Below, piece by piece: positions 44,384-47,835 of a DNA stretch of 64,000 nucleotides; the stretch's first letter is position 1; the number at the start of each line of letters is the position of its first letter. The notes under the pieces were generated by a model. The model saw nothing but the letters and a program-made list of their open reading frames with translations, did no database searches and was not told the DNA's origin. A program made the translations under genes and the position numbers. Origin of the DNA: a bacterium (lineage in GTDB: Bacteria; SZUA-79; Acidulodesulfobacterales; Acidulodesulfobacteraceae); the NCBI GenBank assembly GCA_021812245.1, contig JAKAOK010000003.1, positions 1-64,000 on the forward strand, read 5' to 3'.

Positions 44384-44420
44384 AAACCCGTAATTTAAAA
44401 TATCTTTAAATTACGGGTTT
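44384..44420 (-). terminator. Intrinsic terminator downstream of the secreted DsrE-like gene
   Basis: A perfect 16-bp stem (AAACCCGTAATTTAAA with its complement) and a 5-nt loop are followed on the minus strand by TTTTTG. It insulates the sulfur module from pheS. Confidence 0.75.
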
Positions 44421-44468: not shown

Positions 44469-45041
44469 TCATGGTTTTAAATAAGCATATCCTTCGGATT
44501 CCCTTAAAATAATTTCGCCCTGTGCGGACGGAACTATTTTTATAAACGGATACAGTTTGGAAACGGGAATATGCAGTTCATATAAACTGTTTGCGCACTG
44601 AACAAGCTCTACTCCCATCTTTTTTAACCTTAGTAATGCCTTTTCGCGTCCGTTTCCTTTAAAATAAAGATGCGTTCCAGCGCTGAATGCCTGAAGTTCT
44701 ATTTTAATATGTCCTTTAAGACGAGGATCGTTTAACGCATTAGAAATATTATCTATAATCTTATTCATTTTAACTTTATCGTTTGCGCTTATTACATAAA
44801 TTGCATGATAAACCTTTCCTGGAACATAAGGCGCTCCCATGGTATATTTAGGCGCAATCGATAAATTGGGATAATATTTTCTGACGCCTTTAACATTGTG
44901 CCAACCGTACCAACCTGCCGGATGAACTGCAGGCGCAGTTCCTCTCCAACCTGCAAAAGCATTGGATGCCAACGAAAATACTATTGCTGAAAACACTAAA
45001 ACAGAAATGCTGAAAAGCGATTTAATACTTTTGTTTTTCAT
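44469..45041 (-). CDS. Secreted DsrE/DsrF-like protein with a single cysteine
   Basis: This 190-residue protein has a signal peptide (1-30, cleaved near SNAFA-GW) and a DsrE-like domain (about 75-190): KVYHAIYVISANDKVKMNKI, IELQAFSAGTHLY, then LKKMGVELVQCANSL. Cys149 is the only cysteine and aligns with the CxNT-type position of COG1416 proteins. DsrE domains carry sulfane sulfur in the cytoplasm, so export to the periplasm is notable. It follows doxDA by 59 bp, and AAGGAG precedes ATG 45041. A sulfur-carrier or binding role is inferred from fold and context. Confidence 0.8.
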   Translation of the reverse strand: MKNKSIKSLFSISVLVFSAIVFSLASNAFAGWRGTAPAVHPAGWYGWHNVKGVRKYYPNLSIAPKYTMGAPYVPGKVYHAIYVISANDKVKMNKIIDNISNALNDPRLKGHIKIELQAFSAGTHLYFKGNGREKALLRLKKMGVELVQCANSLYELHIPVSKLYPFIKIVPSAQGEIILRESEGYAYLKP

Positions 45042-45100
45042 TTCTCTTTTCTCCTTTTAAATTAAATTTTTACTATATAATATTGCCTTTATCTTAAAAT

Positions 45101-46153
45101 TTAACCTTTATATCTAAAATTTTCGGAAAATTTCTGTCCGCTTACGTCGGTAAGTATAAGTTTATAATTTCCGGGTTTTAAAGTTTTTATAACTTTTTCA
45201 GCTATAGACAGGCCTATATCGGCTTTAGCTCCAAGCTGCATTACCATGCTGTATTGATTTATGAAAGCCCTGTTGACATACCTGTTATGTATAGCCGTCT
45301 GCGGCAGTTTTTCGATAGCTTTTTGGTTCCAGATATAAACAGGTTTTCCGGCAGAGTCGTCAATCTGAGCTTTAATGATATATGCGAATGCGGCTCCGCT
45401 TCCGCCTGTTCTATAAACCACAAAATTCAAATTGTTATTTGTAATTTTAGCTTCCGAAACCGACACTGCCAATTTTTTTCCAAAATTATGCAGTTTCCCC
45501 CAGACTCCGCCCTGGAACATCTGGTTGGTGCCCATAGTTACCAGAATCGCGAATACCGCAAAGACTGCATTCCATGCTTTAAATCCTTTTCCCCATAACG
45601 GACCGTTTCCTATTAGTCTATAAATAAATGAGTTTGCGGTTTTCGGCCACATATTTCTTACTATGTCGTCGAAAGACCATGCACTGCCGGCAAAAAGAAT
45701 TAACAAACCGATAGTCATTTCGACGGAACCGACCTGCCACTCGTCAAGGCAAGTAGCGCCGAGCCATCCGGAACCGAACAATATTCCGAAAGCTAACGCA
45801 ACAGACCCTAAGCCGCCAAGTCTTGAGAACAAGCCGAATATTAAGGATAAACCGACAAGGAATTCTATTACTGTAAACATATTGAGGAATACTGCCAATG
45901 CCTGCGGATGCAGGATTAAAAGATGGATTAAGTTTCCTACTCCCATAAAATTGCTCGCATGAGGCAGGAAGGTATTAAATTTGTGGCCTACCCATAAAGG
46001 CGAATTCGGCTGAAGTTTTCCGCTTGCAAGAACGACCCTTCTCCAAGCCGCCGAAAAAAACATCCAACCCAAAACTAATCTTAACGGTATTGCGGCATAG
46101 CCGATATAGCGGTATATAACGCTGTCTTCGATTTCATTTGGATTTTTAGACAT
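45101..46153 (-). CDS. doxDA: Thiosulfate:quinone oxidoreductase, DoxD-DoxA fusion
   Basis: This 350-residue membrane protein has a DoxD part (about 15-185, four or five helices) with LRLVLGWMFFSAAWRR and FGILFGSGWLGATCLDEWQVG, typical of the DoxD subunit. One further helix (about 195-215) precedes a periplasmic DoxA-like domain (about 225-350). In Acidianus these are two proteins, while in Acidithiobacillus-type genomes they are fused. The enzyme oxidises thiosulfate to tetrathionate and reduces quinone. ATG 46153 follows GGGAGGG. It lies between an 18-bp hairpin and the secreted DsrE gene. Confidence 0.88.
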   Translation of the reverse strand: MSKNPNEIEDSVIYRYIGYAAIPLRLVLGWMFFSAAWRRVVLASGKLQPNSPLWVGHKFNTFLPHASNFMGVGNLIHLLILHPQALAVFLNMFTVIEFLVGLSLIFGLFSRLGGLGSVALAFGILFGSGWLGATCLDEWQVGSVEMTIGLLILFAGSAWSFDDIVRNMWPKTANSFIYRLIGNGPLWGKGFKAWNAVFAVFAILVTMGTNQMFQGGVWGKLHNFGKKLAVSVSEAKITNNNLNFVVYRTGGSGAAFAYIIKAQIDDSAGKPVYIWNQKAIEKLPQTAIHNRYVNRAFINQYSMVMQLGAKADIGLSIAEKVIKTLKPGNYKLILTDVSGQKFSENFRYKG

Positions 46154-46197
46154 AATCTATTACCCTCCCATTATAAATATAAATTATGATTAAATTA

Positions 46198-46236
46198 AGG
46201 TATTCGGCCGTAATTCATAATTATGGCCGAATACCT
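46198..46236. promoter_or_regulatory. Long perfect hairpin between the binding-protein gene and doxDA
   Basis: A 12-bp perfect outer stem AGGTATTCGGCC/GGCCGAATACCT, a G-T pair and 5 more base pairs enclose the loop CAT. No T-run follows on the minus strand, so it is less likely a simple terminator than an mRNA-stabilising or processing hairpin, or a partial terminator. Confidence 0.65.
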
Positions 46237-46258
46237 GTTTATTATAAATTATTTATAA

Positions 46259-47245
46259 TTAAGGAGCTGTAAATCCGAAACGCTCGAATATTTTTAAACA
46301 TTCTTTCGATTTCAAGAAATTCAGCCATTCCTGTGCGGCCTTAGGATTCGGAGCGCCTTTAACCATGGCGCCGCCGTATAAAGCTACAGTGTTTTCATTG
46401 GCAGGAATATTAATTCCGGTAATAGGATTTCCTATCATTTCCTGAAATTTAGCCTCAGACTGCCATGTAACGCCGGCATCCGATTTTTTCTGCATAATCC
46501 TCATAGGGGTCTGACGGTGATGTATGTGGGTCAAATAAACTCTCCCCGATTTTACTCCATAGTTATAAACGGACTGTTCTAATTTTTTCCCGCCGGCCTT
46601 AACAAGCGAAGCCTTAATCTGGTGTGCTATACCTTCAAATGCGGGGTTAGGCATAGACAGTTTTAATTTTGGATTACCGAGGCTTTTTAATCCGGTAATA
46701 TGATATGGATTCCCTTTATAAGTCATTATAGTAAGGTCATTTTTCCCATAGGTAACTATCTTTCCGGTCGTCATTCCTATTTTATTGGTAAAACGAAGTT
46801 TTTTTGCGCCAGCCATATAGATATCCGGCGAAAAATACATCGTCAGATTTCCCAGCGTAACGGTATTATTGTGCTTCCATACTCTTACCAGCATACCCGG
46901 AGGAATAGTTATATAAAATACATGCTTGACGTTAGGATATTTTTTCATAAATGCTTTTACGACATGGGGCAGTACAAAAAATATATTACCTCCGATAAAT
47001 ACCACTAAACTTGACTTGGGATGCAAGGTAACGGCGGTAATGTTTCCGTGAAAATCAGGATTATTATCTACGGTCATAGGACTGAAATGGTAACCCTGCT
47101 CTATCGACGGGTCCCCATTTTTGCACCATGGCGGATATACGCCTTTAATACCCAGAGCAAAAGAAGCTTCGGACATAGAAGCGGTTAAAACAAACACTAA
47201 TGCCAGACCTAATGCCAGCATTCTAAACAAACGAAGTGAACGCAT
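46259..47245 (-). CDS. Periplasmic substrate-binding protein, ModA-like, without a transporter
   Basis: This 328-residue protein has a signal peptide (about 1-30) and a type 2 periplasmic binding fold. LVVFIGGNIFFVLPHVVKAF resembles the first strand and helix of molybdate/sulfate-type proteins, and NTVALYGGAMVKGAPNPKAA followed by EWLNFLKSKECLKIF is the typical C-terminal part. Two cysteines are present after the signal peptide (PPWCKNG and KECLKIF). No permease or ATPase is adjacent. The first gene before doxDA, it may present a sulfur oxyanion to DoxDA or act as a sensor. The ligand is unknown. ATG 47245 follows GGAGG. Confidence 0.75.
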   Translation of the reverse strand: MRSLRLFRMLALGLALVFVLTASMSEASFALGIKGVYPPWCKNGDPSIEQGYHFSPMTVDNNPDFHGNITAVTLHPKSSLVVFIGGNIFFVLPHVVKAFMKKYPNVKHVFYITIPPGMLVRVWKHNNTVTLGNLTMYFSPDIYMAGAKKLRFTNKIGMTTGKIVTYGKNDLTIMTYKGNPYHITGLKSLGNPKLKLSMPNPAFEGIAHQIKASLVKAGGKKLEQSVYNYGVKSGRVYLTHIHHRQTPMRIMQKKSDAGVTWQSEAKFQEMIGNPITGINIPANENTVALYGGAMVKGAPNPKAAQEWLNFLKSKECLKIFERFGFTAP

Positions 47246-47334
47246 AATTCTTTAACCTCCAAAGTTAATTTTTTTGATTAATTTTAATTTAGCAATAACT
47301 AGTAAAATGCCGAAGATTTACTTATAACTTTTAA

Positions 47335-47362
47335 AATATACTACTTTAAAAAAATAAGTCAA
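47335..47362 (-). promoter_or_regulatory. Candidate promoter for the binding protein-doxDA-dsrE operon
   Basis: On the minus strand TTGACT (47362-47357) and TATATT (47340-47335) are spaced by 16 nt, within the 242-bp divergent gap. The leader would be about 80 nt. Confidence 0.5.
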
Positions 47363-47385
47363 TAAAAAATGTTTAAAAGATACTA

Positions 47386-47415
47386 TTGATATTAAAACCA
47401 TACAAAGTATATAAT
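47386..47415 (+). promoter_or_regulatory. Candidate promoter for the divergent DsrE-like gene
   Basis: TTGATA (47386-47391) and TATAAT (47410-47415) are separated by 18 nt. It lies back to back with the sulfur operon promoter, so a shared regulator could act on both. Confidence 0.5.
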
Positions 47416-47487
47416 TGTATAATATAGCATGATTATTTGGATAATTTTATTTTAATTATAAGTACTATACGGCGAGGATAAGGCACT

Positions 47488-47835
47488 ATGAAAACAAAAG
47501 TTTTAATCGTTATAACAACAGGAGAAAATGACCCGATTAAAGTTGTTTCCGGACTTAATCTTGCATGGAAGACAAAAAAGAACGGAAGCTTTGAAGATGT
47601 CAGGGTGTTTTTTTACGGTTCATCGGAAGATTATATCGCAAAGACCGATAATGCAGAGGTATTGGAAGCCTATGAAGAGGTTTTAAAAAACGGCATTATT
47701 ATTCAGGGTTGCATCGGATTTGCTAAAAAATTTAACGTTACTACAAAATTAAGCGATAAAAAAATAACGCTTATGAGTTCGTCTGCCGTTATCCCTGATC
47801 TTATGGCGGACGGATACAAGGTGATAACTTTTTAA
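47488..47835 (+). CDS. Cytosolic DsrE-like protein
   Basis: This 115-residue protein without a signal peptide shows a DsrE-family pattern: VLIVITTGENDPIKVVSGLNLAWK, VRVFFYGSSEDYI, then NGIIIQGCIGFAKKF with the sole Cys at 75 in the usual sulfur-carrier loop. It ends in a beta strand (GYKVITF). It is divergent from the DoxDA operon. DsrE relatives relay or bind sulfane sulfur. A role linked to thiosulfate or tetrathionate metabolism is inferred from position only. ATG 47488 is preceded by GGCGAGG. Confidence 0.75.
   Translation: MKTKVLIVITTGENDPIKVVSGLNLAWKTKKNGSFEDVRVFFYGSSEDYIAKTDNAEVLEAYEEVLKNGIIIQGCIGFAKKFNVTTKLSDKKITLMSSSAVIPDLMADGYKVITF

Follow-up and report, generated by a model that had tools for sequence, protein, structure and literature searches.

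A conserved operon for a periplasmic binding protein, DoxDA and an exported DsrE-type protein in Candidatus Acidulodesulfobacterales, with a putative role in thiosulfate oxidation

We analysed a stretch of 64,000 nucleotides (the window; contig JAKAOK010000003.1) from an uncultured acid-mine bacterium of Candidatus (Ca.) Acidulodesulfobacterales. Here a gene for a periplasmic substrate-binding protein (SBP) lies next to genes for a DoxDA fusion protein and an exported DsrE-type protein, a context that supports a function of the SBP and the exported DsrE in thiosulfate oxidation. Delivery or sensing of a sulfur oxyanion by the SBP, and sulfane sulfur transport or capping of tetrathionate by the exported DsrE, all suggested in the initial annotation, are putative roles. 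The initial annotation had described these genes and a divergent cytosolic DsrE-like gene as one locus with back-to-back promoters. All four open reading frames (ORFs) are present (Table 1), and the promoters correspond to two promoter-like sites, each recognised by consensus match alone. The trio forms one minus-strand operon, as was confirmed: a promoter-like site comes first, then the SBP gene, a gap of 105 nucleotides, the DoxDA gene, a gap of 59 nucleotides, the exported DsrE gene and a terminator-like hairpin. The gap between the SBP and DoxDA genes as a whole gave a folding z of -3.8 in the window and of -3.1 to -5.6 in four relatives (L018-L021), so that it folds unusually well in all five genomes of the genus that were tested. 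In the stem of the hairpin within this gap, both sides have changed with pairing kept in 8 of 17 pairs (5 sequences). The hairpin perhaps sets the expression ratio of the flanking genes and could let the SBP exceed DoxDA.

Table 1. Genes and regulatory features at the SBP-DoxDA-DsrE locus, in window coordinates.
Feature	Position	Strand	Basis
Terminator-like hairpin at operon 3' end, 17-pair stem then T-rich tail	44384-44420	-	
Exported DsrE-type protein (COG1416-like), 190 amino acids, predicted signal peptide (by eye)	44469-45041	-	ORF and phmmer
DoxDA fusion, 350 amino acids, putative thiosulfate:quinone oxidoreductase	45101-46153	-	ORF and Pfam
Long RNA hairpin between SBP and DoxDA genes	46198-46236	-	Folding and covariation
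SBP, 328 amino acids, predicted Sec-type signal peptide (by eye)	46259-47245	-	ORF and Pfam
Promoter-like site upstream of SBP, TTGACT-16-TATATT	47335-47362	-	Consensus match alone (10/12)
Promoter-like site, back to back with that of SBP	47386-47415	+	Consensus match alone
Cytosolic DsrE-like gene	47488-47835	+	Pfam DsrE, 29.2 bits (exceeds cut-off)

The first protein of the operon matches Pfam SBP_bac_11 (4.1e-35, 122 bits against a gathering cut-off of 25 bits), and the best matches of its family profile are the sulfate-binding protein SubI (7.5e-12), PEB3 (5e-8) and the sulfate-binding protein 1sbp (4.8e-7), with molybdate-binding proteins also matched. It is thus a putative oxyanion-type periplasmic binding protein, and it carries the conserved motifs DNxPDxHG and HHRQTP. 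As the initial annotation had proposed, the SBP lacks a transporter: no ORF with ABC (ATP-binding cassette) ATPase motifs was found within 10 kb of it in the window. In related loci no ABC genes adjoin the SBP gene, and the few that were found sit about 4 kb away or farther. A role as an ordinary ABC transporter component was ruled out by this lack of adjoining ABC genes.

In DoxDA, the Pfam domains DoxD (PF04173; 1.6e-41, 142.5 bits against a gathering score of 22.7) and DoxA (PF07680; 4.8e-28, 98.1 against 27 bits) occur in the same chain. Cys135, located in the sequence GATCLDEW, is invariant in 12 DoxDA proteins from four families, and the DoxDA proteins of two further genomes described below (G541 and G619) carry the cysteine too. 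A simple hydropathy and charge count, which gives a weak topology estimate, suggests five helices with the DoxA domain and the Cys135 loop outside.

The third protein, whose signal peptide reads by eye as ...SNAFA|GWRG, was rightly described in the initial annotation as exported, DsrE-like and endowed with one cysteine. This residue, Cys149 in QCANS, is invariant in all 16 closest relatives and aligns with a cysteine of MTH1491 (1l1s), which is matched by phmmer at 9e-8 with the single sequence and at 8.4e-26 with the family profile. The window protein is under the Pfam DsrE (PF02635) cut-off (13.9 against 22.7 bits), and its operon homologue in G541 passes it with 40.9 bits. Judged from sequence, the protein belongs to the COG1416 type of the DsrE superfamily, with a clear relation to the MTH1491 and ST0148 structures. 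Structures predicted from 13 similar rows each were too poor for use (mean predicted local distance difference test score, pLDDT, of 39 for the exported DsrE and 34 for the SBP).

The conservation of the trio was assessed in 30 genomes of the same family. SBP, DoxDA and this type of exported DsrE occur in an identical set of 13 genomes, and the unit is missing from the other 17; if presence were independent, and with relatedness ignored, the chance of such identical sets is about 1 in 1.2e8. In all 12 other SBP-bearing genomes the genes are adjacent and have the same order and strand. PheS lies on the DsrE side of the trio in 10 of these 12, and a tRNA-Leu separates GltD from the SBP gene in most loci read. 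In the window genome, and there only, the cytosolic DsrE gene is placed between tRNA-Leu and SBP. We considered it as a fourth member of the module, but it lies beside the trio in none of the 12 other genomes, and copies that are 90-93% identical occur in unrelated surroundings in G008, G009 and G026. The cytosolic DsrE is a passenger, so that of the proposed four-gene locus three genes hold together. In two of these three relatives, a TauE/SafE-like gene (by eye) is close to the copy.

Relatives of the window's exported DsrE, 62-66% identical to it, were also observed in sox loci of the same family, with further exported DsrE-like proteins alongside. Such a locus has SoxB with a SoxA/TsdA-type cytochrome, followed by TusA, YeeE and an exported rhodanese (several names by eye); one copy of the locus also has SoxY and SoxZ. 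Exported DsrE proteins of this type are thus found with two distinct systems of thiosulfate oxidation. In four sox loci (L103, L104, L105, L109), the stretch from SoxB to the TusA/YeeE genes encodes three to four DsrE-like proteins that are exported or lipoproteins, and an exported rhodanese is nearby in some. One such relative of the window DsrE stands alone in L106.

To follow the module beyond this family, we ran the profiles of SBP and DoxDA against 386 genomes sampled from several hundred families, and a class-wide SBP search covered 274 genomes. The class-wide search revealed an exported single-cysteine DsrE followed by SBP and DoxDA in G541 and G619, each from a further family, which shows that the trio is not peculiar to one lineage. 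Both trios have a divergent LysR gene beside them; cytochrome bd oxidase genes (Pfam) come after the trio in G541, and a CydB-like gene (by eye) lies downstream in G619. In a third family, represented by G174 in the 386-genome search, the SBP-DoxDA pair recurs with another exported protein ahead of the SBP. By NCBIfam NF052225 this protein is a thiosulfate dehydrogenase (TSD; 356.9 bits against a cut-off of 300), and we take it to be of the Acidithiobacillus ferrooxidans AFE_0042 type, a link made through NF052225 and the published gene order and not through the AFE sequences. All five TSD-bearing genomes of this family have TSD-SBP-DoxDA, often with overlapping genes, and this matches the published order in A. 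ferrooxidans. An NCBIfam scan gave no match for the exported DsrE of the window, and so the third gene there is not TSD.

Elsewhere, the periplasmic parts are linked to another redox enzyme. In G773 (L131), SBP and DsrE proteins that are 72-74% identical to those of the window are adjoined by a divergent SoxA/TsdA-type diheme cytochrome, and no DoxDA was detected in this genome. G774 (L264) has the same arrangement of SBP, DsrE and cytochrome; the absence of DoxDA concerns G773 alone. At 14 further loci the SBP adjoins a TSD-like gene whose product matches NF052225 under the cut-off (103-107 bits). A two-haem cytochrome comes next in six of them, and the three that were scanned are all of the SoxA/TsdA type. 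In a tree of 45 SBPs, all those linked to DoxDA, TSD, TsdA and SorA share one well supported part, and a group of orphan SBPs stands apart (97/98, 99/98). Three orphan SBPs of the outgroup clade (L229, L234, L235) likewise lie a few kb or less from exported DsrE-like genes, without DoxDA. An exported DsrE 40% identical to that of the window was also seen in a distant 3.9 Mb genome with no module nearby (L177:9358-9825).

TSD and the exported DsrE thus occupy the same position, and we compared them at the profile level. An hhalign comparison of 18 TSD with 23 DsrE/COG1416 sequences resulted in 95.1% with a score of 58.2 over the domain, and the invariant Cys210-His211 motif of TSD falls on the DsrE cysteine. 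Unrelated families and reversed alignments, used as controls, gave at most 0.2%, and 60 column shuffles at most 2.7% with a best score of 21.6. Each TSD subset alone still matched DsrE (95.5% and 92.5%). The match depends on the DsrE rows: it was 89.6% and 95.1% with diverse rows and 3.5% with the 16 closest rows alone. TSD had no direct Pfam match and no DsrE match in PDB profile searches, and no relatives of TSD were found in viral contigs. On these alignments, the Acidithiobacillus-type TSD appears to belong to the DsrE superfamily without being a close orthologue of the operon DsrE, and proteins may have been recruited to the third position on more than one occasion. The placement of TSD in this superfamily is new; we did not find it stated in the literature searched, which excluded most subscription journals.

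On balance, we lean towards the view that the trio is an operon for thiosulfate oxidation on the outer side of the inner membrane. We favour this reading because the three genes co-occur and adjoin in 13 of 30 family genomes, because exported DsrE, SBP and DoxDA also stand together in G541 and G619 and TSD takes the place of DsrE in the third family, and because SBP-DsrE or SBP-TSD adjoins SoxA/TsdA-type cytochromes elsewhere. The cysteine-on-cysteine match of TSD and DsrE and the nearness of the SBP profile to sulfate-binding proteins point the same way. Precedents from characterised proteins also argue for it. DsrE3A of Metallosphaera cuprina carries thiosulfate as Cys-S-thiosulfonate (PMC4175335). 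The tsd-sbp-doxDA cluster of A. ferrooxidans is induced on sulfur (PMC2754497), and its TSD is a protein of 25 kDa that is most active at pH 2.5 and forms tetrathionate. Ubiquinone and cytochrome c are not reduced by this TSD (PMC6335251), and a partner should therefore be required.

In the proposed mechanism, the transporter-less SBP would capture and concentrate a sulfur oxyanion, thiosulfate or another, in the periplasm. Thiosulfate would then be bound oxidatively to the one cysteine of the exported DsrE, most likely as a Cys-S-thiosulfonate, and be presented to DoxDA, which would pass the electrons to the quinone pool; in other versions, a cytochrome would receive them. Attack by a second thiosulfate would then free tetrathionate. 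The analysis shows the genes and their linkage, the association of both periplasmic parts with TsdA/SoxA-like cytochromes elsewhere and, at the profile level, the membership of the Acidithiobacillus-type TSD in the DsrE superfamily; we infer the ligand, the cysteine adduct, the order of steps, the periplasmic side of DoxDA and the product.

Several points weigh against this assignment. The initial annotation had called the fusion a thiosulfate:quinone oxidoreductase (TQO). Both domains are indeed present in one chain, but the protein is under the TQO equivalog cut-offs of NCBIfam NF041179 and NF041178 (106.2 and 16.9 bits, each against 300); we therefore file it in the DoxDA family and infer TQO activity. 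A cytoplasmic orientation has been suggested for the TQO of Acidianus ambivalens, and tetrathionate, but not thiosulfate, reacted with M. cuprina DsrE3A (PMC4175335). The DoxDA proteins of G141, G262 and G278 have no adjoining SBP or DsrE, and hence these two partners are not obligatory. At two loci (L266, L268) the SBP is followed by a SorA-like molybdoprotein, which resembles sulfite dehydrogenase, and a one-haem cytochrome. Compared with the seven operon DsrE proteins only, a set of low diversity, TSD gave 2.4%.

The reaction of DsrE3A with tetrathionate would fit an exported DsrE on the product side, which takes a thiosulfonate or sulfane group from tetrathionate in the periplasm and hands it to other carriers (rhodanese, TusA/YeeE import), with the SBP buffering or delivering thiosulfate. 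The closest relatives outside the trio, in sox loci of the same family with exported rhodanese, TusA and YeeE, are consistent with such a role. We nevertheless consider it unlikely, since TSD, placed here in the same superfamily, makes tetrathionate instead of consuming it, and since SBP-DsrE accompanies a TsdA/SoxA-type cytochrome where DoxDA is absent. SBPs without a transporter can also act as sensors, and divergent LysR genes adjoin several related operons, so the SBP might report thiosulfate to a regulator or gate DoxDA rather than deliver substrate. This seems improbable: LysR proteins are cytosolic and none adjoins the window operon, and we noticed neither a sensor kinase nor a membrane receptor next to the SBP in the loci that were read. 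A different substrate for DoxDA and its partners, either some other sulfur oxyanion or a thiol (for instance sulfite), would suit the scores below the TQO cut-offs and the SorA-like sulfite dehydrogenase genes beside SBPs of the same tree part, but is very improbable, since both TSD and the partners of TsdA/SoxA type indicate thiosulfate.

The operon may be one form of a general periplasmic thiosulfate capture, in which an SBP and an exported DsrE-fold cysteine protein serve interchangeable redox enzymes (DoxDA, TsdA/SoxA-type cytochromes and perhaps sulfite dehydrogenase), with the Acidithiobacillus TSD as the cysteine component; we put this forward tentatively. If true, it would explain why TSD reduces no quinone or cytochrome c on its own. 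The idea bears on how DoxDA is supplied with thiosulfate in an acidic periplasm, on the role of the SBP beside doxDA and on the working of the A. ferrooxidans TSD, questions that become approachable by binding and single-residue tests through the pattern of gene linkage and the DsrE fold proposed for TSD. Ca. Acidulodesulfobacterales would gain a second likely route of thiosulfate oxidation; the paper on this group (PMC6776010) describes sulfate reduction, sulfide oxidation and a partial Sox system and does not mention dox.

According to the initial annotation, the exact four-gene arrangement was not known to have been described, and an SBP paired with ordinary ABC genes and without doxDA co-occurrence would have spoken against its reading. 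No ABC genes were found to adjoin the SBP, and the co-occurrence is clear from the genomes above. The SBP-DoxDA pairing is already known: in A. ferrooxidans the order of a Tat (twin-arginine translocation) protein, TSD, with SBP and doxDA has been in print since 2008 and 2009 (PMC2621215, PMC2754497, PMC6335251), with TSD in the place of the exported DsrE. The version with an exported DsrE is one variant of a modular system. The A. ferrooxidans clusters (AFE_0042-0044, AFE_0050-0047) likewise combine a transporter-less SBP with an adjoining DoxDA fusion and, as third member, an exported protein that we place in the DsrE superfamily like that of the window. They differ in gene order, in the presence of rhodanese and other genes, and in that TSD is a Tat-exported protein of about 25 kDa, whereas the window protein is a Sec-exported DsrE of the COG1416 type. 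The A. ambivalens TQO (DoxD/DoxA) shares both domains; in the window these are fused, accompanied by an SBP and an exported DsrE, and below the TQO cut-offs. M. cuprina DsrE3A is also of the DsrE type with a reactive cysteine that handles thiosulfate groups, but it is cytosolic, works with TusA and has two conserved cysteines, in contrast to the exported window protein with its single cysteine. MTH1491 and ST0148 belong to the same sequence family, with 108-113 amino acids and without the signal peptide and N-terminal extension of the window protein. Finally, PEB3, SubI, Sbp and ModA are related in sequence to the window SBP and of the SBP_bac_11 type, whereas the latter stands without ABC genes and carries the DNxPDxHG and HHRQTP motifs.

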